Shown piece by piece: positions 11,268 through 30,001 of a stretch of DNA of 64,000 nt. Every line of letters begins with the position of its first letter. Position 1 is the stretch's first letter. Origin of the DNA: Salisapilia sapeloensis (lineage: Eukaryota > Oomycota > Peronosporomycetes > Peronosporales > Salisapiliaceae); assembly GCA_023334545.1 (NCBI GenBank), contig JAADVB010000027.1, forward strand, positions 1-64,000. Direction: 5' to 3'. The notes beneath the pieces are model-generated. The model saw only the letters and a program-made list of their open reading frames with translations. It was not told the origin of the DNA and did not search any database. Made by a program: the position numbers and the translations under genes.

Positions 11268-12785
11268 ATGGCCGCGCTCGACAACCCCAACGACGTGTAC
11301 ACCGCTGCCAACAACGACTCGGACAGCGCCAGCCACACCAACCCGAGTGAGCCCAAAGACGCCTTGGTGCTCAAGCCCAACGCCATCCTCTACACGAGTG
11401 TGCTCGTCTCCTTCCTCCTTCCGCTCCAGTACGGTTGGAGTACCAGTCAATTGAATCTGAACAAATTCAACAATGAAGACGACTGTAACGCTGACCCGGT
11501 CCAAGAAGGAACGTGTGTCATGTTCCCGGGTCACTCCAAGCTCCAGTGGACCTTTGCCGTCAACGCATGGATTCTCGGAGGTATGATCGGTGCACTCTCG
11601 ATTGGTCGCTTCTCTGACCGCTTCGGTCGTGTCCCCAGTCTGCGTGGCAACTGCGTCCTTATGGTCGTTGGCGCTGTCATCCAACTTGCTGTCTCCAATG
11701 TCTGGGCATTCGCTGCCGGCCGTTTGATTGCCGGTCTTGCTTCCGGTGGTGCCTCGGGTGTCGTCAGCTCCTACATTGGTGAGATCTCTCCTCCGCACCT
11801 CCGCAGTTCGCTCGGTGTCGGTTTCCAGATTTCTATCACGCTTGGTATTCTGATCGTCAGTCTCACCTTCTTCTTCGCCAACACCTCCAGCGGATGGCGA
11901 TACATTGCTGGCTTCCCGATTATTCTTGCTGGTCTCTTTGTCATCCTCTCGCCGATGCTTATGGTCCGAAGCCCAGTCTGGCTGCTCAACAAGGGCAAGG
12001 AAGATGAAGCCAAGAAAGAACTTGCTCGCCTCTACGGTGAAGAGAACGTCCCGATGGCCATGGCTTGGCTCCAGACCAAGCTCGAGGACTCGGACGATGA
12101 AGGTGCCGACGGTGCTGAACCCGTCAAGGACAACAAGCGTGCTCCCAGCATCTTCTCGTCGCTCCTCATTCGCCAGTTCCTTACGGCTACCTTCTTGGCC
12201 TGCTCCCAGCAACTCCTTGGTATCAACGCCGTCTTCTACTACTCGAGTGACCTCTTCACGAGCGCTGGTATTGATGACGACCGAATTGGTACGGTTATCA
12301 TTAACGTTGTGAATGTGGTGCCGACTCTGTTCGCCGGTATGCTATCCAACCGCTTCGGCAACCGTCCGATGGTTCTCACTGGTTTCGCCGGTATGCTTAT
12401 CAGCTGCATTGGTATCACCATTTCCCTGTCCACCGGCGTTGACTTCTTGTCCATCGTCTTCACGGCGCTCTACGTTGCATTCTTCGGTATCAGTATGGGA
12501 CCGCTCGTGTGGGTCATCCTGCCGGAACTCTTCCCGAACAACGCTCGTGCCACGGCCGTGTCCATCTGTGTCGCTCTTAACTGGCTGTCCAACTTGATTG
12601 TCGGTGTCGCGTACCCGTACATTGCCAGTGCTCTCGATGACCTAGGCTTCTTGCCCTTCATCGTTCTGCTCGCCATCTTCTTGCCGACTGCATGGTTCTG
12701 CGTCCCGGAGACGTTCGGCAAGTCTACCGATGAGATCCAGGAAATGTTCATCGGTGAGAAGAAGAACGCTCTCGCGGAAGCATAG
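11268..12785 (+). CDS. MFS sugar transporter 1 (GLUT/hexose type, canonical motifs)
   Basis: Intronless, 505 residues, 12 predicted membrane helices. GLUT-type signatures are intact: SDRFGRVP in loop 2-3, GEISPPHLRSSLG after TM5, QQLLGINAVFYYS in TM7 (the two Gln that contact sugar in human GLUT1), WVILPELFP in TM10-loop, and PETFGKSTDEIQ at the C-terminal end. The first external loop carries two Cys (DDCNADPVQEGTCVMFPGHS), shared by all copies in this island and probably disulfide-bonded. Expected role: plasma-membrane sugar uptake. It is the most canonical member of the local family and the likely ancestral type. Codon use is strongly biased to C-ending and GT-ending codons, as in a well-expressed gene. 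Confidence 0.92.
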   Translation: MAALDNPNDVYTAANNDSDSASHTNPSEPKDALVLKPNAILYTSVLVSFLLPLQYGWSTSQLNLNKFNNEDDCNADPVQEGTCVMFPGHSKLQWTFAVNAWILGGMIGALSIGRFSDRFGRVPSLRGNCVLMVVGAVIQLAVSNVWAFAAGRLIAGLASGGASGVVSSYIGEISPPHLRSSLGVGFQISITLGILIVSLTFFFANTSSGWRYIAGFPIILAGLFVILSPMLMVRSPVWLLNKGKEDEAKKELARLYGEENVPMAMAWLQTKLEDSDDEGADGAEPVKDNKRAPSIFSSLLIRQFLTATFLACSQQLLGINAVFYYSSDLFTSAGIDDDRIGTVIINVVNVVPTLFAGMLSNRFGNRPMVLTGFAGMLISCIGITISLSTGVDFLSIVFTALYVAFFGISMGPLVWVILPELFPNNARATAVSICVALNWLSNLIVGVAYPYIASALDDLGFLPFIVLLAIFLPTAWFCVPETFGKSTDEIQEMFIGEKKNALAEA

Positions 12786-13084
12786 GGCCTAGTCATACCG
12801 CTCAACATTCAAATATCTACCCGATAACAAAGTTCAGTTTTACACATCAACTCTTACTCTTGTCATTACATCTGCACCACTCTATTGTCTCTTCTTTGTC
12901 TTCACAAGCTACCAGTGTAGACTCTTCCGACGCATGGCCATGACTTCAGCTTTACAAAGTCAGTAACATCCTCTCCACATCATCTAACATCGTCCGTGCC
13001 GTCTGCGTAATACTTGTATCGCTTTCGTACGCTCGTCCAAACCTGCAGAAGCACAACATATCAGCCACTGCCGATTAATTTTAA

Positions 13085-14615
13085 TCAGTAGCTGTCTACA
13101 TACACTGTCAACGAATGTCGCAGGTGCTCACGTGACTCCAGTAGAGCAGACCGTTTGTCAGAAGATGTGCATGCATCCATTCCAGATTCGTACAGCAACT
13201 TGCCAATCTGCATATAAAGGAGGCCACGGGATGGGAGGGCTAGTTTCGGAACGACCCATTCTGTGGCACTCAATTCCGCTCTGAGGTAGTAAACGGGAGG
13301 TTCCTGCTCTTTGCCTTTTACATCCATGTGGTCGATGAGAAAGTTGCCCAAATCTCGAGCCAACGATGCTTGGGTGGCGTTTCGGCGGTGATGCAGTTTG
13401 GACGATATCAGCCAGCACTTCTTGTAGGCAGTCCATTGGTGTTGGGCTGTAGGAAGAGACGGGATCTGACTCAAGAGAGACGAAAACTCTTTTGTGGCTT
13501 GCAGGATGCTTTCGTCAGAAGCACGGAAGCCACAACGAAGGCATTGAAATGGACAAGTAGCTGATAAAACGCCATTTTCATCGCAACTAGGATTCAAGCA
13601 CTTGTATCCGTCGAGATAGTCATCTTCCGTCGGTCTATCGGTACTCGTCGCCAACTGTGTCGAGCAGCGAGAGCATTCACATGTGAAAAAGTAGGATGAC
13701 TGGAGGGCTTGTTGGCGTTTGGGCGTGGATTCCAACAGCTCAGTGTAGGACACCTAGTGTTATACACACCAATAGGCGTTAGTCTTTCCCTTCGTATTCG
13801 TAGTGACGTACAAGACTTACCGTCAGCTCTTCGCCAATCTCTACGTGCCGTATAGCTCGAATGAACATCTTGTCATTCCGAAAGCTGACGATGCAGTTCG
13901 GGTAGCAAGAGTGATTGAGCATGGCAGCGTCAGGAAAGAGACCGATCGCAACCGGCGCGTTGACATCATTGGCGATCGTAAATGCGTTGCAGTTCACTCG
14001 ACAAAAGAGCAGCACAACGTCATCTTTTCGCCGCTTTAGAAGCTCTTCAAAAGATGCCTTCACATGATTGTACTCGGAACGGGTGATGAGCTGTATCACG
14101 AGAGCACTCATCTCTTCAAATTGTCCGATCTTCGTCTCGGCGTGCTCACCTGCAAGCGGATTTCACTCAGCCATAAACGACAATCACGAGAAGAAAAGAG
14201 TACCGTAGTGATGCTGGAGTTGGAGTACGCCTTGCATTTCTGTCGAGTTCGAATTGCTCGTGAAGAAGAGTTTGCAAGCTAATCGGAAGACGAGCAAAAC
14301 TGTCTGAGAGACGGATTTGCCGGACGCCATAGGAATCTCCTTCCATGCAGCACATTCCAATTTGTGTCCTCCCCTCCATGCATTTTGCTGACACTGTCGA
14401 CTGCAAAAGCGAAGACGCCGACAGCTTCCACACTTGCGGAGAATGACGTCTCTTGTGCTAGTCCGTAAGCACCAGTCGCATGCTGTTACGGACACGCGTG
14501 CAAAGGCAGACGACTCTAGAACACGTGTATATGGAAGAATGGGATGCAAGGCGACTCCTCCGCGGCCTCGTCCAGTCGAAATCGACTCGACAGCGAACAT
14601 TGGCTTTCGTGTCAT
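13085..14615 (-). CDS. SET and MYND domain (SMYD-type) lysine methyltransferase
   Basis: Three exons on the minus strand: 14615-14204, 14149-13821 and 13753-13085, giving 469 residues. A MYND zinc finger (CDWCL...CGSCRRLRFCSRQC...HKLEC, about 46-90) is inserted in the N-terminal SET part. The SET core follows with NHSCYPNC and GEELTVSY, the latter formed across the second splice junction, then a post-SET CECSRC. This order matches SMYD proteins, which methylate lysines on histones or other proteins using S-adenosylmethionine. The C-terminal helical domain is present. It lies convergent to transporter 1, 299 bp from its stop. Confidence 0.9.
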
Positions 14616-14846
14616 TTAAGTGTGTCCAGGTGTCAAGCCACGCCGCTGGCACTTTACGCCCGAAGTGACGAACCATTCAACAGAACGTATTATATTTCAA
14701 GCCAAAGCACCAATCATGCTGTCGGATATGTCAATTTCTCGTGTCTCTACTTCGACAAGAGCAGCGACTACCACCATTTTAAGACGCTGCATACGTGAGC
14801 CTGCAATGTGTCCGAAGAAAAGTGCTGGAAATGACATGGATGCCTA

Positions 14847-15820
14847 GACGAGCATCACATTCGCATTGTTACCAGCTTGCTTCATTGGTCCCAATGCGAT
14901 CAAAGCACAAGCCAGCTTAAAGTCGATGTCTACAGCTCCGACGAGATATGCCATGCAGATCGGGCGAAGAAGAGTCTTTACATCATGCTCCCGGGATATG
15001 TAAAACTCGAGCGGATGATTATGTCGAACGCATGGATTGGTGGAGAAATTATCAGTGCTCTCTTTCTGGATGCCTTTGGTCATCGAAAGGCTGAAATGTA
15101 TAGCTGCAGTGCCACTCTCATCATCGAGTTATGTGTACATCTGGGTAATGTCAGCCGGGTAGCTCATGTCTGGCTTCGCTTCTGAAAGCGCAACTTTCAA
15201 AAAGCAGTATTTCGACATCATTTGCGTCTAGATGGACCAGCAAATCTTCTCTAACAGCGCAGTAGCTTTCTACGCATGTGACTTTCCAAAAATGACAGCA
15301 TCAGCAATGACAAGATTTAGACAATCTTGATGAATGTCGTCAGTGTGACACCGACATACCTTGCAGGTAGCGGTCTACACGCTTTGGTAATTGATGGTGC
15401 TCTGTACAGACCCTTCGTCTCGCTCACCGGTACTATAGGCATGATAACCGCGTTGCTCATGAGCATCTTGTCAGTATCCTTTCCTCTTCACAGCAACGGA
15501 TGTTATTGAATAGGAGGTCGGACAAGATACTATCACGCAGGCCATCCTGTCTCACCTTCTACCAAGTTCAGCATGTGCAAATGCTGTGTTCATTTGCTTA
15601 AGCTCGAGTTGGCTTTCCGATTTTATTGGTGGCCTTAGTCATCCTTACCTATTGTCTCCTTAAAACGACTTGAGCTTTGTGTCTTTTGACGTCCTTTACA
15701 GCGTCGAAAGTCATCTCCTACTTGAGCATATCGTTGACTGGAAAGTATATGACAGAGGATATCTAGACGCAATTTCAAAAGAAGCATTAGCCGAACCAGT
15801 AAGCGCTACAGCACTTTAAA
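14847..15820 (+). pseudogene. Decayed sixth sugar transporter of the island
   Basis: Pieces of the neighbouring transporter can be read in order but in shifting frames with stops. They are: a TM1-loop part (TSITFALLPACFIGP, compare TSVLVSFLLPLQYGW of copy 1); a MLPGYVKLE...SNAWIGGEIISALFLD block (compare MFPGHSKLQW...NAWILGGMIGALSIG); QQIFSNSAVAFYACDF (compare QQLLGINAVFYYSSDLF); MMNVVSVTPTYLAG (compare IINVVNVVPTLFAG); and ACANAVFICLSSSWLSDFIGGLSHPYL (compare ARATAVSICVALNWLSNLIVGVAYPYI). About 170 residues between TM4 and TM7 are missing. The tail retains a KEALAEP match to copy 1. Several frameshifts and stops rule out a working gene. It looks closest to transporter 1. Confidence 0.8.
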
Positions 15821-15880
15821 CAATTCATTGTATGGCTGGTCTATCGCTACTCTTCGCTTGCCCTATCGCCCGCTCATTTC

Positions 15881-16916
15881 CTACGAGTCTTCGTCTGTCA
15901 TCCGAAACGGAGGGCCGGCCGCAGGTTGGATGATGCGGCTCACGTCCACTAGTTTGGACTTGAGCAGCCCATGGTACAGTCCAGCACTCACGGACGCATT
16001 AAACTGGAACTTTTTCGCTTCTTCCTCCGTCAGCACCTGCTTCGTCGGACCTCGATGAGGCCTTTTCTCCAACTTTGATAGGAAGCGGAGGACTTGGTCC
16101 ACCGACTTGGCACTAGTGTCGCTTCCGACTGTTATCTCCACAGGCGAAACGAGTAAGCACGGGTAGAAAAATCGGACGCCTAGAAATCGTTCAGGCGTTA
16201 CGAGGTTGCTCCTACGTATCGTTCAGCATGATTAGTTGTGATTCCCACCTCTCAGCAAGTCCAGGGACAAAAGCGTACTGTATAGAGTCAATGGTCAGGT
16301 TGATGGTGCTCGTCGCAAGGACGGTCGAAAGAGAACATATCTTTTCCAGTTCCTGGAACAGCTTGGTCTTTGCAGTCAGGTCGTCCGGGATCTATGCTCA
16401 TAGAGCAAGTGGTGAACTCTGTTATGTTTTTCATACCTACTTATCCTTCATACCGCCTCGAGGACGACGTCAGCTTCTGCACAGCCGCTCAAATCCGACA
16501 CAAAGTTGATGCCATTTGATGCTTCCGTCACCATGCGCTTCGTGATGTAGCCGAGGTGAAGTAGCGGAGTCAGTAGCTCATACGCCGACGTTGAGAGCTA
16601 ATGTTTTCATATCAGTCGATGCTGGATCGAAGTTGTAAACTAGGAACTCTACCATAGATGCGATGTTTGGATCCCTGTCGATAACAGTGACTTGAACGCC
16701 TTGCAAAGACAGATCCACTGCAATGCATCTATGCCAGTCGCATATATGTTAAAGATATCGATCATGAGTCCATTTACGAGCACTAGAATCGTACTTGCCG
16801 AGAACCCCTGCGCCAACGATGGCTACTCTATAGTGCGCCGCCTCGCAGGAAACAAGATTCCGCTCCAGGTTGCGGTAGGCAGAGAGGGGAAGCGGGGCAG
16901 GCGCGCCATGGGACAT
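15881..16916 (-). CDS. 3-hydroxyacyl-CoA dehydrogenase-like protein, frame broken at last junction
   Basis: Exons that fit: 16916-16795, 16728-16653, 16597-16454, 16391-16249 and 16179-15881. The NAD-binding Rossmann start is clear (YRVAIVGAGVLGKCIAVDLSLQGVQVTVIDRD), followed by ADVVLEAIPDDLTAKTKLFQEL and VLATSTINLTIDSI, all hallmarks of HAD enzymes. The last exon has FFYPCLLVSPVEITVGSDTSAKSV, equivalent to the HFFNPVP..VEV....TS region. However, every plausible donor leaves phase 2 while the last exon needs phase 1, so one extra or missing base separates the two parts. It may be a recent pseudogene, a sequencing error or an unusual splice site. The protein then diverges from the family where GFI.NR is expected. 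Start at 16916 is the first ATG of the open frame. Confidence 0.6.
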
Positions 16917-17527
16917 CTTTGAAAGACAGACTTTTGTGCCAGGTCCAGTTGGTGGATGGGTACCATAAAAGCGGAGAAATTGCACGATGCGAACGTTATT
17001 TTATTAGACATATTCAGAGTTTCGTGTGGTCGAAGCCTTCCGATGTGGCAATTGCTAGCTGTACCTCCGGTACAACATCAAGGGAGCGTGCGAAATGGTG
17101 ATTGTCCGACGAGTATCGGCAAAGCGGTGCCGAGCATGATCAGTGAGTAAGAGAATAATCATAAAATAGGATTGCGCGGATCGATTAAGACGTGAGGAAA
17201 AATGCATTCAATGCGCATACAAAATAGTGATAAATTGGTTGACATTTTATGAGATCGTGGACTTGACGCGTGATAAGACTGCTTGAAGTTTCGGTCTTTC
17301 ATCTTGATTAGAGGAGCAAACGCGACCAGGGCGAGATGCCGAAGAGCATTTTACAAACGAAACAGACTCGTCTATAGCTTCTAATACATCATTAGTTCAT
17401 ACACCGCTTCAGCACTATCCTCCAAAGACGTTAGAGGTCAACCTCGTTGACTGCTGTTCCCGTTGACCGCTCGCTTGCTCTCTCCACGACAGCCGATTTG
17501 CCGCCGACGCTGTTCTATCTGTGTCTT
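16917..17527. other. Intergenic region between HAD-like gene and transporter 2
   Basis: Divergent promoter region. Nothing else recognised; ORFs here are short and of uninformative composition. Confidence 0.5.
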
Positions 17528-17543
17528 CCTCACTTTTCAATCT
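17528..17543 (+). promoter_or_regulatory. Oomycete-type initiator plus flanking element, transporter 2
   Basis: CCTCACTTTTCAATCT is a strong match to GCTCATTYYNCAWTTT, 32 nt before the ATG at 17575. It fixes the likely transcription start and argues against any longer N-terminus. Confidence 0.6.
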
Positions 17544-17574
17544 CCTGTACGCTCTCAAATTGCAATCACATTTC

Positions 17575-19101
17575 ATGTCAGCAAAGCTATCGCCGCGTCA
17601 AGGCGACATGAACGTCAAGACACCGGTCATCGACGAGCAACCTACCACGCACTACGAAGACCTGCTCAAGGAGCCAGAACACAAGTTGAAACCACGCTTG
17701 ACGCTCTACACGAGCATCATCGTCGCCATGGTCGTTGGTGTGCAATACGGCTGGAGCATCTCCCAGCTTAATCTTTCGACTTTCCATGACTCAGATGACT
17801 GCAACGCTCGCCCTGTACCCGAAGGTCGGTGCTTGATGTTCCCAGGACACTCGGACCTCGAGTGGGTTTTTGCTGTCAATGGCTGGATCTTTGGAGGCAT
17901 GATCGGATCCCTTGGCACTGGTCACTTTGCCAAGCGCTATGGTCCAAGGAATACATTGCGAGGTGCATGTGGCATTATCATCATCTCGGTTGTCATCCAA
18001 ACAAGTTCTTATAACGTCTGGCAATTTGTCGTTGGCCGTCTAGTAGCTGGGCTTGCATCCGGTGCCTCCTCTAGTATCATCAGTGCCTACATTTCGGAAG
18101 TTTGTCCACCGCATCTTCGTAGTGCGTTTGGCGTCGGATTTCCACTCGTGTTGTGTATCTCCATCTTACTCGTTGCCATCGCCTTCTTCTTTGCAGACAC
18201 ATCCAGCGGATGGAGATATATGGCAGGCTTCCCACTGATCCCGACAGCCATCTACTTGGTCGGGTCTTTCACTGTGATGGTAGAGAGCCCGCCATGGCTT
18301 CTTGTACAGGGTCGAAGAGAAGAAGCAAAGCAGGAACTTGCTCGTCTGTACGGCGAAGAGGGCGTAGTCATAGCTCTTGCGTGGATCGAGCCCAATGGTG
18401 ACGAGTCTCGCATCAGTCAATCCTACAGCGACTTGGGTGACGACATTGTCCATCCGCTTCACGATGGTAAAACGCCAACACTATTCTCAAGGGAAATGAT
18501 ACTGCAGCTATTGGTTGCGCTTGGCGTGATCGGTTCCCGTCAGATGTGCGGCATAAATACTGTATTCTACTACTCTGCTGGTCTGTTTGTCGACGCTGGC
18601 ATTGAAGATGATCGTATTGGGACGATTATCATCAACGGCGTCAACTGCATCCCACCCTTAATAGCTGGTGTGCTTGCCACAAAACTCGGCAACAAGAAGA
18701 CCCTCATTTCAACGTCATTTTGTGGAATCCTAAGTCTCATTGGGCTTACGATTGCTCTCGTCACCGACGTTTCCGCGCTCTCGATCGTCTTTACGGCTAC
18801 ATTCGTCATCTCCATCAATGCCGGATTGGGTGCATTGGCGTGGGTCGTGGCAGCGGACGTCTTCCCAGACGAGGTACGACCGAGTGGATTCGCGCTCTGT
18901 GTTGCCTCACAATGGTTAGCAAACCTTATCGTCGGTGTTGGATACCCATACCTTGCATCCGCAATAGGGACGCTGCGTTACGTCCCTTTCATTGGCATCT
19001 TGGTCATCGCCATTCTCTTCATGATGATGGAACTCCCGGAAACCTCAGGAAAGACGAACGAAGAAATCCAGCAATACTTTCAGAAACGCCGAAACAAGTA
19101 G
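17575..19101 (+). CDS. MFS sugar transporter 2 (diverged motif set)
   Basis: Intronless, 508 residues from the first ATG; the open frame extends upstream but has no ATG and the promoter motif lies there. Twelve helices, the two-Cys first external loop (DDCNARPVPEGRCLMFPGHS) and C-terminal PETSGKTNEEIQ identify it as a paralogue of transporter 1. Diagnostic positions differ: loop 2-3 reads AKRYGPRN instead of SDRFGRVP, TM7 reads SRQMCGINTVFYYS (Arg in place of the first sugar-contact Gln), and the PELF motif reads AADVFP. It is likely a functional transporter with changed substrate or coupling. A 23-nt stretch (17836-17858) is identical to transporter 4 (26075-26097), pointing to recent duplication or gene conversion. 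Confidence 0.9.
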   Translation: MSAKLSPRQGDMNVKTPVIDEQPTTHYEDLLKEPEHKLKPRLTLYTSIIVAMVVGVQYGWSISQLNLSTFHDSDDCNARPVPEGRCLMFPGHSDLEWVFAVNGWIFGGMIGSLGTGHFAKRYGPRNTLRGACGIIIISVVIQTSSYNVWQFVVGRLVAGLASGASSSIISAYISEVCPPHLRSAFGVGFPLVLCISILLVAIAFFFADTSSGWRYMAGFPLIPTAIYLVGSFTVMVESPPWLLVQGRREEAKQELARLYGEEGVVIALAWIEPNGDESRISQSYSDLGDDIVHPLHDGKTPTLFSREMILQLLVALGVIGSRQMCGINTVFYYSAGLFVDAGIEDDRIGTIIINGVNCIPPLIAGVLATKLGNKKTLISTSFCGILSLIGLTIALVTDVSALSIVFTATFVISINAGLGALAWVVAADVFPDEVRPSGFALCVASQWLANLIVGVGYPYLASAIGTLRYVPFIGILVIAILFMMMELPETSGKTNEEIQQYFQKRRNK

Positions 19102-19743
19102 ATTAAAGTCGTGCGTAGACTCTGGAAACTTAGCCGTCCAGCATGTTAGAAAGTGTCTACAGTCACCAACTTCGAGATAGTTTAGGGCGTTAGTAAACGT
19201 TTGTGAGATTTCGCAGTTCTTGAATGCTATTTTGTATGGTGTAACCATGGAGATGGAACTTAGGCAGCTAACGATTTTTGTTCATAGGCTGAAGTAGGCA
19301 ATCTACTACATAGAAAAAGCGTATCTCCTCCCTGGAATCGCTCCGGCAGTCTCCACAGCTGTCGTGCATCAATTTGTAGGGTTTGGTGTTTTGGATTATA
19401 AGCTACGATCATTGGCTAGTCCAGCAATTAACGTAGCCCATATGCAATTAAGTACGAACTGTGTACTAAACCACCTTAATGTTGGTGACTGTAGACGTTT
19501 TTTATGTACGAATACCACATAACGTGTTGGATGCCCAAGTTACCAGAGTCTAAAAGTGCTTAGTGCTTAGTGCTTAGGCATCTTCTAAACGGACTATAAG
19601 CCCAGCAGAAATGCAAGCCACAATTTACTTGAACGGCATGCCTAACATCAATCCTGCTGTATTGTACGCGGACGAGAGACTTGTAGGAAATGTATTAAAA
19701 CCTATACTTGAGCTAGAATGAAACTGTCGGAATTTACTTGTCC
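19102..19743. other. Intergenic region between convergent transporters 2 and 3
   Basis: No gene seen. A short tandem repeat of the unit gtgctta lies near 19556-19576. The region holds the two 3' UTRs. Confidence 0.55.
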
Positions 19744-21264
19744 TTACGCACGTGCGGCAGCCTGACGCCGCTTCAGCCGATCCTGAAATATCCCCTGAAT
19801 CTCTTCATTCGATCGGCCTTGAGTCTCTGGTACTAGACACCAAAGGAAGAGAACTATCAGCGCCATGATGACTATGAATGGCACGTAGCGAAGCGATCCT
19901 AGCGCAGATGAAATGTACGGGTAGCCGATACCAATGAACAAGTTGCTAAACCATTGGCAGGCGACGCAAAGAGCGAACCCGCTTGCACGTGCGTAGTCAG
20001 GGAGGACGTCAGCTGCTACGACCCAGGCCAAGGCCCCAAGTCCTGAGTTAAGAGTAAGCACGAACGTACACGTGAAGACGATCGAAAGCTCCGAAATGTC
20101 CGCAATGAGTGCAATGGTAGTACCGATGTGACTTATGAAAGCACCCGTGGACATCCAGAGAAGCGTCTTTCGATTACCAAACTTGGTGGCAAAGACTCCG
20201 CCTATCACTGGCGGTAGCATATTGACACAGTTGACCACGACGGTTCCAATACGGTCGTCCTGGATACCCGCGTCTGTAAAGAGCGTAGAGCTGTAGTAGA
20301 AGACAGTATTCAAGCCTGAGAGCTGCCTGGATGCTATTGTTCCCATTCCGATAATTAGTTGAGGAAGCACGGACTTGGAAAACAGCGCCGGGGTCTTGCC
20401 TTCGTGAATCGGTTTGATAATGTCTTCGGCTAGGTCACTGTAGGAGCTGCTGATGTGCTGACTGTCCGTTCGAGTCGTTTCAATCCAGCCCAAAGCCATG
20501 GACACGTTTTCTTCCCCAAAAAGTCTTCCCAGTTCATGCTCAGCTTCATTGCGTCGACCTTTTAGTAGCAGCCAAGGCGGACTTTCCACCATCACTGTGA
20601 ACGATCCAACGAGATAGAGGGCGCTCGGAATCAACGGGAAGCCGGCGATGTACCGCCAACCGCTAGAGCTTTCGGCAAAGAAGAACGAGACAACGACCAT
20701 CAAGCTTGACGTCGCGATAGCAAAGGGCAGCATCACGCCCATGGAACTCCGCATGTGAGGCGGAGCCACTTCTTGGATATAAGTTCCAACGATACTAGAA
20801 CATGCACCAGAAGCAAGACCGCCAATGAAACGGCCGGCAGCGAATTGCCACACGTTAAAAGAGCTGGCCTGGATGATGGCAGCTACGATAGCAATCACGC
20901 TAACGCCACGCAATGTGGCTCGTGGACCGTAACGGGAAGAGAAATGGCCAGCACAGAGAGAACCCACCATGCCGCCGAAGATCCAGCCATTCACGACAAA
21001 AAGCCACTCGACTTCGCTATGACCTGGGAACATTAAGCATGTGCCATCAGCGATGGTCGCAGCGTTGCAGTCATCTTTGTTGTTATACGCTGTGAGGTTC
21101 AGTTGTGATATACTCCAGCCATACTGCAGAGCAGTTAGCAGCGAGCACAAGATGCTCGTGTACATTATTTGATTCGGCTTCACAAGTTCGAGCGGGTCCT
21201 CCAAGAGGTCCTTGTACTGCGTATGCGGCCCGGTATCCGGCGGTGGTGTCTCGACATCTCTCAT
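19744..21264 (-). CDS. MFS sugar transporter 3 (diverged motif set)
   Basis: Intronless, 506 residues, on the minus strand. It has the same family frame: DDCNAATIADGTCLMFPGHS external loop, SSGWRYIAGFP after TM6, and PETQGRSNEEIQ at the end. It shares the changed residues of copies 2, 4 and 5: SSRYGPRA in loop 2-3, SRQLSGLNTVFYYS in TM7 with Arg for Gln at 20326-20328, and AADVLP in place of PELF. By motif pattern (AADV) it is closest to transporter 2, with which it is convergent, consistent with an inverted duplication. Expected to be a plasma-membrane solute carrier. Confidence 0.9.
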   Translation of the reverse strand: MRDVETPPPDTGPHTQYKDLLEDPLELVKPNQIMYTSILCSLLTALQYGWSISQLNLTAYNNKDDCNAATIADGTCLMFPGHSEVEWLFVVNGWIFGGMVGSLCAGHFSSRYGPRATLRGVSVIAIVAAIIQASSFNVWQFAAGRFIGGLASGACSSIVGTYIQEVAPPHMRSSMGVMLPFAIATSSLMVVVSFFFAESSSGWRYIAGFPLIPSALYLVGSFTVMVESPPWLLLKGRRNEAEHELGRLFGEENVSMALGWIETTRTDSQHISSSYSDLAEDIIKPIHEGKTPALFSKSVLPQLIIGMGTIASRQLSGLNTVFYYSSTLFTDAGIQDDRIGTVVVNCVNMLPPVIGGVFATKFGNRKTLLWMSTGAFISHIGTTIALIADISELSIVFTCTFVLTLNSGLGALAWVVAADVLPDYARASGFALCVACQWFSNLFIGIGYPYISSALGSLRYVPFIVIMALIVLFLWCLVPETQGRSNEEIQGIFQDRLKRRQAAARA

Positions 21265-22521
21265 GGTGTGGTTGGGCGTTTATTCCGAGGAGAGAGGGAT
21301 CCGGAGCGCACGTTGAATAATGGTTTATCGGGGCGAGGAGCATCGTTTACTCATACGACTGTCCGAAAGGGTGGTATAGCCGATTCCAATCACGTGATTG
21401 CAGATGTCTGATTGCTCGGTGATTTGTTGTTTTCTCGCGCTGTACCTCTTGCAGATATCGACGACGATGCGCATTACCTCTCGATTAACACGGATATACC
21501 TAAGGCTATACTTTCATGCCACGCAGTAGAATGTGATGACTACTATCTATCGTGGAGTAATAAAAAGATGCTGCTTTGTCATAGTAACCCAGGGTGCCAA
21601 AGTTCAATAGGCGCACAAATGAGCTGGTACTTTAAGCGACACATACACGTGCAGCACGTCAGACGCCCCTTCTCGGAAAGCCGTATATCGTTTCAACGTG
21701 GCAAGAAAGGATTGACACCCATACTTGAAGTTCAGTCTACCTGCTGAACTCCAGACGGTCGGAGTATGAAGCGACGAAACAAGCTGCACACACGTGTACG
21801 GGCGCATTGCGGCCCTTTCAGTCTCAAAGAGCCTTACTACTCGTCCGCTTGTAACCGACAATTTCTGAACTTCCAAGTGTGCTTTTTGGACGAGTCTTTT
21901 GGTAGAGCAGTTGGAGCAGCCGAAGCATACAAATCGCACACTTTTCAAGCAATCTTGTCCGGCTTTCATATTTGTTGGTTCAGCGATAGAATAAAGGATT
22001 GGTGTTGATGCAATGGATCAGACGTGATTGTGCATTGCGCCAAAGATATGCTACTCATTTGCTGTGGTCAGATCAGCCCTGTAGTCCAACCCGGTACCCT
22101 ATCACGGATTGCTCGACCCATCATTCAACAAATGAATGTCTGTGTACTGTGATGTGACTAGCTGCATGACAGTGCTCCAGTATAGATGGCTCAGTTCAAG
22201 AAAGAGAAATGTACAGCCAATGTTGAATAAGGAGTTTTGTGCTCGAATGAGCCACGACAACTATTATGCATTCGCCTTCACTGCGCTTCTAATTTCATTA
22301 AGCCTAAAGGTAACACGTGCGATGGATGCGGTCGGTCTTCATGTTATTTAGTTCGATATACTTCTTTGCTTGCATAACATCTTCCTGCTACCTGACAGAG
22401 TATTATAGGATGTATGTCTATTTGTTCCTTGTACCTTTTGCCAACCACCTAGCAAGCATGCACGCATAGCCACTATGGTCGTATGGTGGTAAGCTGCAAA
22501 GCCCGATTGACACAGGATACT
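21265..22521. other. Gene-poor region between transporter 3 and APC5
   Basis: About 1.26 kb with no intact gene. ORFs such as 21604-21969 on the minus strand lack family character. One short segment (22136-22252) resembles a transporter TM1 region and is listed separately. Confidence 0.5.
22136..22252 (+). pseudogene. Possible short relic of a transporter TM1 region
   Basis: The plus-strand frame reads VYCDVTSCMTVLQYRWLSS followed by residues including MLNKEFCA. This aligns with the start of transporter 3, MYTSILCSLLTALQYGWSIS and YNNKDDCNA, sharing the L-Q-Y-x-W core and an N-K-x-x-C spacing. No other part of a transporter is recognisable nearby, so this is a weak assignment resting on about 35 residues. 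Confidence 0.35.
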
Positions 22522-25128
22522 TTATAACGATAGAAGAGCAATAATAGCCTCTGCAGAGTCTATCTTGGCACTGTATCCTTCAGGTTGTCTTGCCAGAGCT
22601 ACATGTCTAGTCTTCTGGAGACTCAGGAACCTAGAAGCGCAGCGGTCGGCGTTCTCTTTATCATCAAGCTGAGTAACGTAAACCATCGACTCGAGATACG
22701 CCACTTGCATTTGGCTCTCAATATCCCCCGAGAGAAATAAGAGTTTGTCGCTTTGATGAAGCCACTGAAGTATCTGCTGCGATCGTCTAGCAGAACTGAC
22801 GGAAGTAGCCATAGCCGCTTTAGCCAGTGTCAACAAAGCCTCTCCACGCAAGTGGACGTCTCCATGCTCTTCTAGTGTGGACATTAATATCTCTAAAAGG
22901 GTCCATGCGCTTTCAGCTTTCCCACTAGCGATCAAGATCTGACTGAGCGCCACATTGGCTTCGCACCAGAGCAAATCGTAGTGATTCTTCCGAGACATTG
23001 CAATAGCATCGAATGCAGCCTCCATTGCTGCGGCTGGATTTTCTGGACTAGATGCTAGACGCACTTGGGCGGTAGCAATGAGTGCCTGCGCTTCCAAGTA
23101 GCTAAAAGACAGCTCCTCAGATGCGAGTGTGAGGTGTCGAAGCCACTGGAGCGCATTTTCATACTCTTCCGCTTTGCTGTATAGGAGAGCCTGGGCCAAG
23201 ACAGCATCGAGGTAGGCTGGAAGGTCTTCCTCTTTCCGACACAGTTTCCACAGCTCCTGCATATGTAACGACGCTTGTGTGATCTCTCCACGATGCATAC
23301 ACCATCGCACTAGCAGCAACTGAGCTGCTCGTTGGATTGATTCTTCCTCCAGAACCGACTCAGGGACGCTTTCGGCCAAGAAGAAAAGTGCCTGGGAGTA
23401 CACATTTTCATCCTGCTCTGCTTTTGACGATTTCCACAGTCTACTTAATGCCATACGAGTGACGGTAAGCGCGATCTCGGCGGAGCTAGCCGAGTCATGA
23501 TGGCAAAGGGAGTGAAGCTCATTGTACGCATCTGTCAGCGTCCTGTGGCCCACGACGCTCCATCCTGCGGACGAAGTCAAGCACACTCCGCCGCTTAATC
23601 TCCATACTCTCTCCAGCACAGAGGATGCAGGAGACGGCCACTGCACCCCACCACCCACTTTTGTCTGCAAAGTCGACGTGTCTGTTTGTCGAGAAGCGTC
23701 CTGGGCTCTCGTCTGCCTCGAGTGCATTCCGATCGCAGGTCCGGAAGAGGAAGAGCTTTGTTCTGGTACTGACATGGAGCCAACTAGCGTCACGCACTCA
23801 CGTATTTTCTGCCACATATGGAGGGGCCGGACTGCTGACGACCGCCACGAGGCGGCAGCAGCGATGCCTCTCCTACTTTCCCTCGTCGATGTCGAAAAAG
23901 AGTTGGGACTGGAACCCAACAAGAGTTCGTTTTCTGCCTGAGCCAGCGATGTGATGACCTGAAGCACAGGAAGTTTGAGTTCCTTGGCGTACTCGAGTGT
24001 GCTCTGCATCATCGACATGACTTTGTCAGGCGGAGATCCATGACGCTGGTGTAGTCGGAGCTGCCACGAGAGCGCAAAGGCGATGCAGACATGATCACCC
24101 TCGCTTTGGCCGATGCGCATGGCCTCATCCAGGGCATCGTTTGCTCTATCGAAATGGTTAAAGAGCAGCTCCAATCCAGCAGAGTTCAGCGCTGCGTACT
24201 GTGGTCCGCAGCCAGCAAGAGCTGTTGGAGGGTTTGCAGAGCGCACAGTAGACGAATCACCCGGTCCAGCGTTCCAGGATTGAGCGTCCATGCCTTGGTT
24301 TATATTCACGACGCTTGTGTCTGCCGTGCCGCCCCCGATGGTGGAACTCCGTGACGTGCTTGAGCCTCGTCTGCCAACAGGATTCGTCAGCACGAGATCG
24401 TGGTACCGATGTAAACTGGTCACTGCATTGTCGTAGTCTCGTCTTTCGACTGCGCGAAGGTACTGGGAGAAGACGTGACTCGGTGTCTGTGCAGTACGCT
24501 CTTGCAGAGGCGACTCACCGCTGCTTTCCTCAGCAATGTCCTTTGTTTCATTCAACTTATCGAGCATGAGCACTACTTCTTCGCTGGTCCAGTCTGCTGT
24601 TTGCCGTCCAGACGGATGAGCTCTGTGTGTCGGTGCCTCTTGAAAGGTAGCTCTAGCGTCGGTGAATGTACCAATAAACGTACGAATGTCATCCAAAAGG
24701 TCCGCGACTCCCTCAAAGAAGCGGGCGTGAACGTTCGTGAGGAAGGTTCGAATGAAAAGTCCTAGTTCTGTGGCCCGACCTACTGCGCTTTGATGCGACT
24801 CGCCATTTCCTGTGACGAGCTGCTCGATCCAGTCCAGTACTTCTTCCACGTCCTCTGGCGTTTCAATCTTATGAAAACAGTCAAGGACGAAGGAGCCTAG
24901 ATAACCCACAGCAGACCGATTTCCAATGGACTGTTGGAGCTGCAATAACAGCTCTGTTGGCGTCGACGAGCCTTCCGACTGGGTCTGCATACGAAGGAAG
25001 CCAAGTAAAGACAGCACTACGGAAGGAGGCAGCTGGACAGCCAGGTCTCTTTCTGCTGGTGCATCTTGGGAATGGTGCTGCCGTGTGTACTCTCCGATGA
25101 GCAAGCTCACAGCGAGTCTCGTGGCCAT
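22522..25128 (-). CDS. APC5: Anaphase-promoting complex subunit 5
   Basis: Intronless, 868 residues, close to metazoan APC5 length. The N-terminal domain starts LAVSLLIGEYTRQH and contains helical blocks typical of the family. The central block GPQYAALNSAGLELLFNHFDRANDALDEAMRIGQSEGDHVC is the APC5 signature TPR, and TPR-like helix pairs continue to the C-terminus (for example SYLEAQALIATAQVRLA and RGEALLTLAKAAMA). The subunit is part of the scaffold of the APC/C ubiquitin ligase that triggers anaphase. Ser/Thr-rich loops around 245-290 and 440-500 are predicted disordered. Its place in the transporter island looks coincidental. Confidence 0.88.
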   Translation of the reverse strand: MATRLAVSLLIGEYTRQHHSQDAPAERDLAVQLPPSVVLSLLGFLRMQTQSEGSSTPTELLLQLQQSIGNRSAVGYLGSFVLDCFHKIETPEDVEEVLDWIEQLVTGNGESHQSAVGRATELGLFIRTFLTNVHARFFEGVADLLDDIRTFIGTFTDARATFQEAPTHRAHPSGRQTADWTSEEVVLMLDKLNETKDIAEESSGESPLQERTAQTPSHVFSQYLRAVERRDYDNAVTSLHRYHDLVLTNPVGRRGSSTSRSSTIGGGTADTSVVNINQGMDAQSWNAGPGDSSTVRSANPPTALAGCGPQYAALNSAGLELLFNHFDRANDALDEAMRIGQSEGDHVCIAFALSWQLRLHQRHGSPPDKVMSMMQSTLEYAKELKLPVLQVITSLAQAENELLLGSSPNSFSTSTRESRRGIAAAASWRSSAVRPLHMWQKIRECVTLVGSMSVPEQSSSSSGPAIGMHSRQTRAQDASRQTDTSTLQTKVGGGVQWPSPASSVLERVWRLSGGVCLTSSAGWSVVGHRTLTDAYNELHSLCHHDSASSAEIALTVTRMALSRLWKSSKAEQDENVYSQALFFLAESVPESVLEEESIQRAAQLLLVRWCMHRGEITQASLHMQELWKLCRKEEDLPAYLDAVLAQALLYSKAEEYENALQWLRHLTLASEELSFSYLEAQALIATAQVRLASSPENPAAAMEAAFDAIAMSRKNHYDLLWCEANVALSQILIASGKAESAWTLLEILMSTLEEHGDVHLRGEALLTLAKAAMATSVSSARRSQQILQWLHQSDKLLFLSGDIESQMQVAYLESMVYVTQLDDKENADRCASRFLSLQKTRHVALARQPEGYSAKIDSAEAIIALLSL

Positions 25129-25786
25129 CTCGTGGGCTTTTCGCTGATGGTATCTAGCGGTTCGGAATTATATACGCAACTGTTAGATAGATTTTTCTGG
25201 GCCACTATCCATACCATGTGGTGAAAATGGGTTCACTTATTTGGTATTGTCATATCCGTTTCAATTTACCGACTGCCGGTTATTCGAAGGTTTGCGCATA
25301 CTGACCGAGAAGCGCAGTACTCGCAAAAGACTGCAAAGGCAGTTGACTAGCATTTGAAAGCTATTGTACCATGTACGACAAGTAATCTATTCGAGCTGTA
25401 GAATGGATGACAATATAATTTGTGTCAACATAACGCTGTCCAAGATAGACACAGTAAGAAGCGGAGTGCTTGCACAGGAAGAAGTAGAGATATGCAAGCC
25501 TACACTGTCATTTATTGCGATTTATTCGATGAGCGTCGCAGTCAACGCATGATGGGCATTTTAGTCTATTGATGCTTACATTTGGAAAGTCAACCACGCA
25601 TCGCGGCATACGAGAGACAGATGTAGCATGAAGCTCTTCATTACCAAGAGAAACTTTGTAGACATTTATGAGTCCGACCATCCTCGCTTGGTGTAAAACG
25701 CAGATGGTTGTATCTGCAGAAAGCTAGCATAAACGAAGAAGATTACCATTAGTCAATTCACAGACTTTGGCTCTAGACTTTCAACT
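25129..25786. other. Divergent intergenic region, APC5 / transporter 4
   Basis: Nothing recognised except presumed promoters for both flanking genes. Short ORFs are not supported. Confidence 0.5.
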
Positions 25787-27343
25787 ATGACTTGCAGAGA
25801 GATGGAAGGCACTGGCGTGTCACCAAGGCAGCCATTTGCGTCCTGTAGTACTCCAGAAGTACTAGAAAACAACTCATTTACGATATCGCACGTAGACCAA
25901 GATAAGCATCTGAAGACTGAAGAGCCAAAGCCCAAATGGATCATGTATTCAAGCGCTGGATTGGCAACCCTCTTCGGGTCCCATTATGGCTGGTGCATTT
26001 CCCAGCTCAACCTCTCGACTTTCCATGACTCGGATGACTGTAAAGCTCGTCCAGTACCGGAAGGCAAGTGTCTTATGTTCCCAGGACACTCGGACCTGGA
26101 GTGGACATTTGTTATTAACCTTTGGCTCTTTGGCGGTATGGTCGGTGCCCTCAGCGTCGGCCATTTCGCTTCCAAATACGGTCCAAAGCGGGTGCTTCGC
26201 TTCAACGCATTTGTGATCATCGCTTCGGCAGTACTTCAAGCCAGCTCCTTTCACGTTTGGCAGTTCGCGATCGGCCGGTTTATTGCTGGACTAGCGACTG
26301 GAATTACCTCTGGGGTGGTGCCTGGATATTTGTCTGAGATCTCTCCTCCCAGCATGCGAAGCTCACTTGGTGTTTCGTTTCAAGCTGCGACTGTTCTTTC
26401 GATCTTGCTGGTTATCCTGACATTCTACTTTGCCAACACAAGCTCTGGATGGAGGTACATCGGTGGCTTTCCTAGCGTTCTGGCGCTCACGTTTCTGCTC
26501 TTCTCTCCTCGAACCATGGTTGAAAGTCCAGTTTGGCTGGTAGTAAAGGGAAGACGAAGCGAAGCAGAAGGCGTTCTGGTACGAATGTATGGCAAGGAAA
26601 ATGTGCATCTTGCCATGCAAGGGATTGAGTCCACTCGAACTGACGACGGCAACCTGAATAGCATCTACAGCGACCTGTCGGAAGACCTCGTGAAGCCACT
26701 AAGAAGGGGAGAGACACCATCCTTGCTGTCACCAGAGTTACGTCTGCAGATGATCGCTGGTCTGGCTCTCGTCGTCGGCAGGCAGATGACGGGTATCAAT
26801 ACAATTTTTTACTACTCTAGTGGCATGTTCCGGGATGCTGGTGTTCAAGATGATCGCGTCGGAAACACAATTATCGACATTGTAAACGTTTTACCTATGC
26901 TGGTGGCCATCAAATGTGTGAGCAGATTTGGAGCTAGAAAGATGCTCATCAGCGGCACTTGCACGATGTTGGTCAGCGCCATCGGGATGACTGTAGCGCT
27001 CTTAACCGAAGTCTCCGCACTGTCGATCGTCTTTTCCGGTATCTACGTCTTCGCTTTTCAAATGAGCCAAGGACCCTTCGTCTGGACAGTTTGCGCAGCG
27101 GTGTTTCCAGACTCGGTCCGAGCGACTGCTATGTCTCTCTGTGTCGGATTCCACTTTTTCTCCAACCTCGCTGTTGGCGTCTTCTACCCATACCTCTCGG
27201 CTGAAATCGACGCATACCGCTACATCCCGTTCTGTGGCTGCATGATAGCCCTTGTCTTCTACTTAGTCATCTATCTTCCCGAAACGACTGGCAGAACGAC
27301 GGATGAAATTCAGCAAGATTTCCTAGCTCGTCGCAAAAAATAG
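25787..27343 (+). CDS. MFS sugar transporter 4 (diverged motif set)
   Basis: Intronless, 518 residues, 12 helices. External loop DDCKARPVPEGKCLMFPGHS and C-terminal PETTGRTTDEIQ are as in the other copies. Loop 2-3 reads ASKYGPKR, TM7 reads GRQMTGINTIFYYSS (Arg codon at 26780-26782 where GLUT-type proteins have Gln), and the PELF position reads CAAVFP, losing the acidic residue altogether, as in copy 5. The loop after TM6 and the first external loop are very similar to copy 2 at DNA level. Copies 4 and 5 share GVVPGYLSEI, which groups them. Probably a functional plasma-membrane transporter. Confidence 0.9.
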   Translation: MTCREMEGTGVSPRQPFASCSTPEVLENNSFTISHVDQDKHLKTEEPKPKWIMYSSAGLATLFGSHYGWCISQLNLSTFHDSDDCKARPVPEGKCLMFPGHSDLEWTFVINLWLFGGMVGALSVGHFASKYGPKRVLRFNAFVIIASAVLQASSFHVWQFAIGRFIAGLATGITSGVVPGYLSEISPPSMRSSLGVSFQAATVLSILLVILTFYFANTSSGWRYIGGFPSVLALTFLLFSPRTMVESPVWLVVKGRRSEAEGVLVRMYGKENVHLAMQGIESTRTDDGNLNSIYSDLSEDLVKPLRRGETPSLLSPELRLQMIAGLALVVGRQMTGINTIFYYSSGMFRDAGVQDDRVGNTIIDIVNVLPMLVAIKCVSRFGARKMLISGTCTMLVSAIGMTVALLTEVSALSIVFSGIYVFAFQMSQGPFVWTVCAAVFPDSVRATAMSLCVGFHFFSNLAVGVFYPYLSAEIDAYRYIPFCGCMIALVFYLVIYLPETTGRTTDEIQQDFLARRKK

Positions 27344-28377
27344 ACTTGGCTTTTGCTCGTAGGTTCCTTCTTGGCATGTTTGCTGTGGGTAAGAGAATGT
27401 GTTCGTACTAGTTTTGACTGGGCATACGTAGCATGCTTCCGCTCGTACCTACTCAATTTAGCGCTGCATGTACAGCTTCTAGCGAGCCACACCAAGGACC
27501 TAGTGAAAGATCTCAATCGAATTTGGATTGCGCTGCACTTGGGTGCAATCTAGCATGTCGCTTGCATACTCTTGTCGCAAATACTGCGCCGTAGCAGCTG
27601 AACACTACCATGAACGCACCAAAATTGTACTCGAAATGTCCAACCAGCAAGCAAAATTCACTCGAAAATGACAAATACCATCATTTAGAAGACCACAAGA
27701 TGACCACGAGACACGCTGGGAGCCTGCCCATCGCAGAGCACACTCGGCACCAGCAGAAAGGGAGTTGGCCGTTCGATTGTCGCTAGCTCTAGGCCTGCCT
27801 TTACTTTTAACTCCCTCGTCAGCAGAATCAACCGGAAGGCTCGCCGCCGTCGACAACGCTGCTATCGCGATGTTAGCAGTCCGTTAGGACTGTGAGCCAG
27901 GGCTAAATAGGCTTCTTCCTCATCTCATTTTACAAAAAAACTCCAGATGACGAGAGATTTATCGCACGCAAGACGAGTCGACGACTTCAGCGTCGCAACG
28001 AAATATGCCGATACAAACTGAAGCAAATCGCTATGACAGTTGCACCGTCATCACTCTTCTTAATCTGCTTTATTGCTCAGCCTCTAAGCAGGTCTATCGT
28101 AAAGCATATTAATCGTGTTTTATTGCTGGGGTGTTCGGAAGAGGACAGAGAATGACATTTTGTTGTCACCAATTTTAATCTACGTGGTGCCGACTTTAAC
28201 ACCATTGGTCGTTTCGTGGGATACGAGAGTAACGGATCACTAGCGTATCACACAACCTTTCCTGGTCTCGAATGGCTGTGAAGCGACGGAAGCTTCTCGT
28301 GGATGGAGTCAGCAACAGTGATGTTTACGAGGGTGATCAAATCGTCTGTGAATGCCAGCAGAGTAAATTTTGAACAA
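27344..28377. other. Intergenic region between transporters 4 and 5
   Basis: About 1 kb without a supportable gene. The minus-strand ORF at 27605-27856 is short and compositionally unremarkable. I could not recognise an additional transporter relic here. Confidence 0.5.
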
Positions 28378-28393
28378 CTTCACTTTGCCTTTT
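28378..28393 (+). promoter_or_regulatory. Oomycete-type initiator, transporter 5
   Basis: CTTCACTTTGCCTTTT resembles the oomycete initiator plus flanking element and lies 19-34 nt before the ATG at 28412. It supports that ATG rather than an upstream non-ATG start of the open frame. Confidence 0.45.
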
Positions 28394-28411
28394 GCACTCG
28401 ACATCGAAGCA

Positions 28412-30001
28412 ATGGCACCAAACGCCTCCGATCGGATTCCATCACCACATAATGGTGCAGACTACGTAACGTATGAGACTTCTGCTACAGGCTCTTCGCC
28501 AAAACATCATGCGGATCTTTTGACTCCGGCAGAAGAGGAAGTCACGCCTCGATGGACCATGTACTCCAGTGCCTTCATGGCTGTATTATTTGGTTGCCAA
28601 TACGGCTGGAGCATCGGCCAGCTCAATCTTTCCACATTCAACGACGCGGACGAATGTAGTATGCGACCAGTACCTGAAGGTCAATGTCTCATGTTCCCTG
28701 GGCATTCCAAGCTAGAGTGGACTTTTGTCGTCAACGCGTGGCTTCTCGGTGGCATGGTCGGTGCACTCACCATTGGACACTTTGCGTTCAAGTACGGCCC
28801 AAAGACAGTGTTGCGAGCCAACGCTTTCGTGATGATCGCATCAGCTGTGCTGCAGGCTAGCTCCTTTAACGTTTGGCAATTCGTTGTCGGGCGATTCGTA
28901 GCTGGATTGGCGACTGGAGCCACTACCGGTGTTGTGCCTGGTTATCTGAGTGAAATCGCCCCACCGCGTATTCGAAGTGCTGTTGGTGTTGCGTTCCAAA
29001 TTTCGCTTGTTGCCTGCATGCTTCTTGTGGTCATCACATTCTTCTTCGCCAACACAAGCAGCGGATGGAGGTATATTGGCGCCTTCCCAGCTGTACTAGC
29101 TATTATCTTCCTCGCCTTCTCTCCATTTTTCATGGTCGACAGTCCCGTGTGGCTGCTTGTGAAGGGACGAAGGGATGAAGCCGAGCGTGAACTCGCTACT
29201 CTATACGGCAAAGAGCACGTTGCTACAGCTTTGGGCTGGATCGAATCTACGCGGACTGTCGACGGACAAATTAGCAGCGCCTACAGCGATTTATCCGAAG
29301 AACTTGTCAGACCCGTTCAAGAAGGAAATACGCCATCTCTGTTTGCCCCCGAAATGCGTCTACAGCTCATCGCAGGACTCGGGCTAGTCATCGGAAGACA
29401 GCTTACTGGATTAAATGCTATCTACTACTACTCCTCGAACCTCTTCCAAGACGCTGGTATCGAGGACGGTCGAATTGGTACGGTCATTATCAATTCGATC
29501 AATGTTATCCCGGTCTTGTTCGCTGGCTCCATGGCGACGAGATTTGGTGCCACAACATTGCTTCTTTACGGCACATGGGCGATGTTTATCAGCTTTATCG
29601 GCATCACCGTTGCTTTTGCCGTCGACATATCCGCGCTGTCGATCGTCTTCTGTGGAACATTTGTGTTTGCGGCTCAGCTCAGTCATGGTCCTTTTGTATG
29701 GACGGTGTCTGCAGCGGTCTTCCCTGACAACGTCCGTGCAACAGCCATGGCTGTATGCATCGGTGCCCATTTCCTGGCCAACCTGATCGTTGGTGTCGGA
29801 TACCCGTACCTCTCGTCGGCCATCGGTGACTACCGGATGGTTCCATTCGTCGTGTGTATGGTATTCATGATCTGGTTCTTAATGGTCTTGGTGCCCGAGA
29901 CGACCGGGAAGACGACCGATGAAATTCAGGATTATTTTGCGGACAAGAGGAAGGCAAAGCGAGTTCCTCGCTCTAGTCACGATGTCGGACACAACGTGTA
30001 G
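28412..30001 (+). CDS. MFS sugar transporter 5 (diverged motif set)
   Basis: Intronless, 529 residues. It has 12 helices, DECSMRPVPEGQCLMFPGHS external loop (DEC instead of DDC, both Cys kept), and PETTGKTTDEIQ near the end. The C-terminal tail is longer than in copies 1-4 and basic-to-polar (KAKRVPRSSHDVGHNV). Loop 2-3 reads AFKYGPKT; TM7 reads GRQLTGLNAIYYYSS with Arg at 29396-29398; the PELF site reads SAAVFP. With copy 4 it forms a tandem same-strand pair. Expected to be a plasma-membrane solute transporter of changed specificity relative to copy 1. Confidence 0.9.
   Translation: MAPNASDRIPSPHNGADYVTYETSATGSSPKHHADLLTPAEEEVTPRWTMYSSAFMAVLFGCQYGWSIGQLNLSTFNDADECSMRPVPEGQCLMFPGHSKLEWTFVVNAWLLGGMVGALTIGHFAFKYGPKTVLRANAFVMIASAVLQASSFNVWQFVVGRFVAGLATGATTGVVPGYLSEIAPPRIRSAVGVAFQISLVACMLLVVITFFFANTSSGWRYIGAFPAVLAIIFLAFSPFFMVDSPVWLLVKGRRDEAERELATLYGKEHVATALGWIESTRTVDGQISSAYSDLSEELVRPVQEGNTPSLFAPEMRLQLIAGLGLVIGRQLTGLNAIYYYSSNLFQDAGIEDGRIGTVIINSINVIPVLFAGSMATRFGATTLLLYGTWAMFISFIGITVAFAVDISALSIVFCGTFVFAAQLSHGPFVWTVSAAVFPDNVRATAMAVCIGAHFLANLIVGVGYPYLSSAIGDYRMVPFVVCMVFMIWFLMVLVPETTGKTTDEIQDYFADKRKAKRVPRSSHDVGHNV

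Follow-up and report, generated by a model that had tools for sequence, protein, structure and literature searches.

In the GLUT-type hexose carriers, the pair of glutamines on transmembrane helix 7 (TM7) is among the best-kept parts of the hexose site. In GLUT1, both of them, Q282 and Q283, contact glucose together with N288, N317, and E380 (PMC11169512). When Ala was placed at the Q282 position of the yeast carrier Hxt1 (Q335A), the growth of hxt-null yeast was not rescued and, as one of a mutant group, the variant cut the uptake of 2-NBDG by 50–80% (PMC4376911); likewise, GLUT1 Q282A is among the mutants with uptake below 50% (PMC9867014). On the other hand, an older GLUT1 Q282 mutant is described as retaining transport, and Q282 as not critical for it (PMC4376911). 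GLUT9 (SLC2A9), which prefers urate, has Tyr327 at the Q282 place and Cys427 at the E380 place, and its Y327Q mutant binds urate more weakly (867 µM, compared with 231 µM; PMC11169512). Here, we describe a 64,000-nucleotide stretch of DNA from the oomycete Salisapilia sapeloensis (the window, meaning the whole stretch analyzed, which is the start of contig C190 in a 19.5 Mb assembly of 452 contigs), in which four of five clustered sugar-porter genes encode an Arg in place of Q282. The substrate of a sugar porter is hard to predict from sequence, and the substrate of these Arg transporters may no longer be an ordinary sugar.

Each of the five copies is a single-frame open reading frame. Copy 1 (11268..12785, + strand, 505 residues) is a sugar-porter paralog with the motif QQLLGIN, its first Gln codon being CAG (12207-12209, +). 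In the other four copies, the first Gln is replaced by Arg: R322 in copy 2 (17575..19101, +, 508 residues, SRQMCGIN; codon CGT at 18538..18540, +), R313 in copy 3 (19744..21264, −, 506 residues, SRQLSGLN; AGG at 20326..20328, −), R332 in copy 4 (25787..27343, +, 518 residues, GRQMTGIN; AGG at 26780..26782, +), and R329 in copy 5 (28412..30001, +, 529 residues, GRQLTGLN; AGA at 29396..29398, +). An original prediction, made from the letters of the window alone, had reported this difference between QQ and RQ, and it holds to the base, with exact codon coordinates. The prediction had also set the Arg at the GLUT1 Q282 place, naming misplacement as one of two ways in which it could fail. No misplacement was found: Q280 of GLUT3 (5c65), which equals Q282 of GLUT1, pairs with R322 of copy 2, and the phmmer alignment of the TM7 motif is gapless. 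In the predicted structure of copy 5, TM7 is broken, and R329 is found toward the end of its first half (helix 316-331), adjoining the break. All residue positions below were mapped via GLUT3 and are quoted in GLUT1 numbers.

The Arg had been described as common to the four clustered copies. All four do carry RQ, but the family is wider. When the assembly was searched with copies 2 and 5, 23 and 24 matches came up, respectively, of which the best candidates were scored, and at least eight RQ paralogs emerged: four in the window, one ~50 kb further along the same contig (C190_80k, at 80.5 kb; RQVTGIN, Arg codon CGC), and three on contig C316 (L016 = C316a, L019, and L020, one full-length and two partial; GRQLxGIQ; codons AGG, CGG, and AGA). 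Hereafter, the five Arg copies on C190 (copies 2–5 and C190_80k) are called the array copies and the three on C316 the C316 trio. The TM7 pair reads RQ in all eight Arg copies and QQ only in copy 1 and in C218, a more distant paralog. Two close paralogs have other residues there, namely CQLSGIN in C60 (L035), where the Cys codon TGT is a single step from the Arg codon CGT, and FHFSGIN in C160 (L036), while a partial copy at the end of C125 (L037) does not include the motif region. The eight copies stand at different sites and use five different Arg codons, which excludes an assembly or sequencing error. Similarly, gene conversion is an unlikely source of the shared Arg, as the identity among the copies is only ~41–61% and their codons differ.

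The Arg copies almost certainly form one clade of at least eight members in which the Arg was gained once. In a FastTree phylogeny of 156 rows, with the two motif columns removed, the C125 partial copy grouped with all eight Arg copies in one clade with a support of 96. An IQ-TREE mixture-model analysis of 53 rows found the full-length Arg copies, six in all, to be monophyletic (ultrafast bootstrap 99, approximate likelihood-ratio test 90) and placed C60 and C160 as its sister group within an own-species clade (98/99), with copy 1 outside; C316a is a long branch whose exact placement is less certain. When R versus not-R was mapped on the tree, one change sufficed. Separate gains in copies 2–3 and in copies 4–5 are not favored, given the single clade in both trees and the rejection of a topology joining copies 1, 2, and 3 by the approximately unbiased test (p-AU 0.007). 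The trees and the five codons in eight copies therefore bear out the original prediction of a fixed change in one clade.

Could the Arg simply have drifted into redundant tandem copies whose constraint at position 282 was relaxed once copy 1 and the QQ paralog C218 took over the housekeeping load? The Cys and Phe of the sister copies, the decayed relic within the array (described below), and the high divergence of the copies from each other, with nonsynonymous distances (dN) of 0.30–0.57, would be consistent with such drift. On the other hand, the frames are open and full-length without stops, dN is well below the synonymous distance (dS, at least 2 or undefined), the Arg has been retained across two codon classes, AGR and CGN, in old duplicates, and the folds predicted for copy 5 and C316a are confident. 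The Arg copies are under purifying selection overall, and we consider drift at this position very improbable.

By Pfam and by fold, the Arg copies are members of the sugar porter family, and they stand at the edge of TIGR00879. Against the Pfam PF00083 (Sugar_tr) cut-off of 22.3 bits, copy 1 scored 349.1, copy 2 259.2, copy 5 261.9, and C316a 276.9; the test covered these four proteins, and copies 3, 4, and C190_80k align over full length with copies 2 and 5. Four of seven proteins exceeded the TIGR00879 cut-off of 237.8 (copy 1, 322.0; copy 2, 242.9; copy 4, 247.2; C190_80k, 248.2), and the other three were slightly below it (copy 3, 231.6; copy 5, 236.3; C316a, 230.4). The SLC22 model TIGR00898 gave 58.0–89.0 bits over the seven proteins, compared with a cut-off of 550.75. 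The AlphaFold2 model of copy 5 has a predicted local distance difference score (pLDDT) of 87.9 and a predicted template modeling score (pTM) of 0.86, and the GLUT/XylE fold is predicted to be intact, with confident models for copy 5 and C316a. The earlier claim of an otherwise intact fold thus stands for the predicted fold but not for positions 411, 380, and Q161 or for the N-domain A motif, all of which are changed too.

None of 257 other rows and loci (143 + 80 + 34) has Arg at position 282, and neither do the aligned GLUT3 and GLUT4. The second way in which the original prediction could fail, the Arg being common in characterized neutral-hexose carriers, was thus not encountered in this sample. 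In the oomycete comparison set (149 rows retrieved, of which 6 outside 400–600 residues were dropped, leaving 143), the column holds Q in 131 rows, a gap in 3, L in 3, H in 2, and S, V, M, and T in 1 each, the S and T rows being gapped at the TM7 motif. A prokaryotic set, consisting of the best 80 of 561 loci related to one QQ protein, with reading frames from tblastn, holds 64 Q, 8 C, 7 N, and 1 S. A further 34 rows (P0155-P0188, including bacterial and fungal sequences and one gapped oomycete fragment) hold Q 16, N 8, G 4, S 3, V 1, M 1, and 1 gap. Position 282 is therefore not wholly rigid across relatives. The protein searches covered the best 120 of 227, 141, and 193 matches, and because their queries were the Arg copies themselves, Arg-bearing relatives should rank first among the listed matches; the closest protein among the best 120 of 227 and of 141 was from Globisporangium polare, at 52% identity. 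In addition, literature searches on oomycete sugar and hexose transporters, on GLUT glutamine mutants, and on organic-anion transport by sugar porters brought up nothing on an Arg at 282, and PMC13095657 did not match the residues sought.

The Arg is one part of a wider remodeling. At position 411, which is a published glucose contact, all eight Arg copies have His or Gln (Gln in copies 2 and 3, His in copies 4 and 5), and none of the 143 oomycete relatives does (N 102, S 22, A 14, T 2, M 1, gap 2). At position 380, the five array copies have Gln or Asn (Asn in copies 2 and 3, Gln in copies 4 and 5), compared with G 107, S 19, A 13, and E 4 in the relatives. In the sister paralogs, this position is Asp (C160) or Glu (C60). 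Q161 is replaced by Pro in copies 2 and 3, and position 412 is W or F in the window Arg copies (F in copies 4 and 5), never Arg. The array copies, five of the eight, retain the sugar contacts Q283, N288, N317, and W388 as well as N415, unlike the C316 trio, which additionally shows N288Q, N317A/S, and W412R.

The A motif of the N-domain, which is said to set the outward/inward balance (PMC7898563), is altered as well. Measured against the consensus Gx3[D/E][R/K]xGx[R/K][K/R] from the same paper, six Arg copies, those that cover the motif, read L, S, K, S, S, and F at the acid place and L, P, P, P, P, and P at the Arg92 place. The sister paralogs C60 and C160 share these losses along with that of Gln282, and Asn occupies the acid place even in GLUT1. 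Might the Arg copies then be sensors, regulators, or binding proteins that retain the fold and cycle poorly? Apart from the A motif, such a role would be consistent with Ala at E393 in copies 4 and 5 and with the TIGR00879 scores of 230–248, versus 322 for copy 1, with three of the six Arg copies below 237.8. However, the array copies retain the TM10 GxP-W motif, Arg126 in TM4, Glu146 in TM5, and the C-terminal PETxG, and E393 departs in many working oomycete relatives too (D in 97 and A in 14 of 116). Furthermore, yeast glucose sensors have long C-terminal tails, which the Arg copies lack. Consequently, we regard a non-carrier role as improbable.

What, then, might the Arg bind? Copies 2–5 most likely belong to an expansion of GLUT-type sugar porters of the major facilitator superfamily (MFS) that is specific to this lineage. 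Its ancestor would have lost the first Gln of the TM7 pair, and the Arg was fixed in a branch that now numbers at least eight copies. Lying on the gating helix TM7, the Arg would face the central site, where it may bind the negative group of a substrate (a sugar acid, an organic acid, or a phosphate ester) or an anion such as chloride, and this binding may help TM7 to close. As the likeliest single reading, at a probability of roughly 45%, we propose from carriers of other MFS families that the Arg binds an anion as part of the TM7 gate, chloride being one candidate ion. In DgoT, galactonate is bound through its carboxylate by a cavity Arg, and this sets off the closing of the outer gate (PMC11649914). 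In SLC22, Arg466 of OAT1 binds chloride and the inhibitor probenecid (PMC10643130) and Arg477 of URAT1 binds urate (PMC11528023). The Arg of the sugar porters would play a role resembling that of DgoT Arg47 and of OAT1/URAT1 Arg466/Arg477.

The second Arg of the C316 trio may be placed at the SLC22 position itself. OAT1 Arg466 lies 12 residues past a conserved Arg, and the same spacing is found for Trp410 of GLUT3 (GLUT1 412) and for the second Arg of C316a. In C316a the two Arg residues are R345 and R470. The second Arg of the trio helps to make an acidic sugar, an example offered in the original prediction, the leading candidate for the substrate. Among the 34 further rows, 5 also have Arg at 412; four of these match best to an aromatic acid:H+ symport model, below its cut-off, and one is a plain sugar porter. 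A tentative extension is that the Arg copies became organic-anion carriers by the stepwise addition of basic charge, with Arg282 and polar residues at 380 and 411 coming first and Arg412 and the loss of N288 and N317 following in a sub-branch. As for coupling, six Arg copies cover the place of XylE Asp27 (GLUT1 29, in TM1), which we take to be the proton site, and carry S, C, or M there; copy 1 has S. Since none has an acid there, facilitators or anion exchangers are more likely than XylE-type proton symporters.

Several observations weigh against an anion-binding Arg. The five array copies have kept Q283, N288, N317, W388, and N415, so that a sugar-like ligand is likely there, and the Cys and Phe of the sister copies show that position 282 has been under loose constraint in this lineage. 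Arg can also bind a neutral sugar, as LacY Arg144 is listed among the sugar-binding residues, beside acids (PMC6156506), and GLUT9 carries an anion within the SLC2 fold using a Tyr rather than an Arg. In statistical terms, invariance by itself is unremarkable, since the six Arg copies share one residue in 98 of 484 columns. Columns whose letters are disjoint from those of the relatives number 7 of 440 (88, 92, 279, 282, 321, 411, and 433). For the six copies, two of these seven fall among 20 published contact positions (P = 0.036, or 0.23 without 282), and for the five array copies it is 3 of 11 (P = 0.010, or 0.065 without 282); other oomycete clades have 9 (the QK clade described below) and 13 (one QQ clade) such columns. 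The enrichment of strongly changed columns in the sugar site is weak and no proof. The amount of divergence is thus ordinary for a clade in this set, and the distinctive feature is which type of residue occupies 282, 380, and 411 (and, in the trio, 412).

The main rival of the anion-binding reading is that the Arg copies still carry a neutral sugar or polyol with altered selectivity, the guanidinium of the Arg replacing the hydrogen-bond donor of the Gln amide and positions 380 and 411 reshaping the site. Beyond the retained contacts and the LacY precedent, this would be consistent with the tolerance of position 282 in relatives (L, H, V, and M in other oomycetes; C, N, and S in prokaryotic loci) and with the description of GLUT1 Q282 as not critical. 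Against it stand the harm done by Ala at the Q282 place in both Hxt1 and GLUT1 and the state of the C316 trio, in which the loss of N288 and N317 and the gain of a second Arg fit a neutral hexose poorly. Moreover, no acid partner was found for the Arg: within the helices, no new acid that could form a salt bridge with it occurs in two or more Arg copies. We therefore consider a merely altered neutral-sugar selectivity somewhat unlikely.

The array also holds other sequences. Between copies 1 and 2 lies a decayed relic of the same transporter family (14856..15744, +) with internal stops, which survives in weak pieces that match copy 1 best (30–38% in two pieces). Two unrelated genes stand inside the array, one with SET and zf-MYND pieces (13779-14615, −) and one for subunit 5 of the anaphase-promoting complex (APC; 22522-25128, −). 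These genes between the copies gave no clue to the substrate, the remaining open reading frames of the window not having been searched. The SP motif of the N-domain reads VRSP in copy 1 and C316a, an Arg replacing Glu209 of GLUT1. Two copies with identical starting letters are interrupted by breaks of contig C316, and the end of C125 is an N-terminal half that matches; the assembly thus seems to be fragmented at this repeated transporter family.

If the stepwise path to organic-anion carriers is true, it would be an independent arrival at an SLC22-like solution inside the sugar porter family. One genome offers, on a common protein scaffold, a natural series of QQ, CQ, FH, RQ, and RQ with a second Arg, which lends itself directly to the question of how a neutral-sugar site turns into something else. 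Databases name many oomycete relatives automatically, for instance as 'Hexose transporter 1', and such names may not fit all paralogs.

How do the Arg copies compare with the known systems? They share family TIGR00879/PF00083 with GLUT1, GLUT3, and GLUT4 (SLC2 class I) but differ from them in having Arg for Q282, His or Gln for N411, Gln or Asn at the E380 place (array copies), and an altered A motif. Among oomycetes, the nearest likeness is a QK clade of sugar porters that also combines a basic residue in the QQ pair with a changed position 411. This clade, which represents a second, conserved basic change in the pair, comprises 14 rows, Phytophthora, Nothophytophthora, and Pythium oligandrum among them (P0028, P0065-P0067, P0077, P0082, P0088, P0096, P0110, P0121 from Pythium oligandrum, P0125 from Phytophthora sojae, P0126, P0129, and P0141). 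It is, however, separate from the Arg clade, with Lys at 283, Gln retained at 282, Tyr or Phe at 388, and Ala at 411; 12 of its 14 rows have His for Q161.

GLUT9 resembles the Arg copies as an SLC2 anion carrier with changed Q282 and E380 places (PMC11169512), but it has Tyr where all eight copies have Arg, and it scores below GLUT1, GLUT3, GLUT4, and GLUT5 as a match for copy 1. DgoT, an SLC17-like galactonate:H+ symporter, offers a mechanistic model for a cavity Arg; on the other hand, it belongs to another family, is proton-coupled, and has its Arg47 in TM1, paired with Glu133. OAT1 and URAT1 (SLC22) carry their TM11 Arg466/Arg477 at the equivalent of GLUT1 412, where the C316 trio has Arg too, an equivalence based on motif spacing, not on a residue-level structural alignment; they also belong to another MFS family, and copies 2–5 and C190_80k have no Arg at 412. 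Judged by these marks, the Arg copies lack the QQ and A motif signatures of GLUT-type hexose carriers and are neither GLUT9 nor SLC22 proteins. They most likely constitute a lineage-specific branch of the sugar porters whose central site has been retooled, plausibly for an organic anion.

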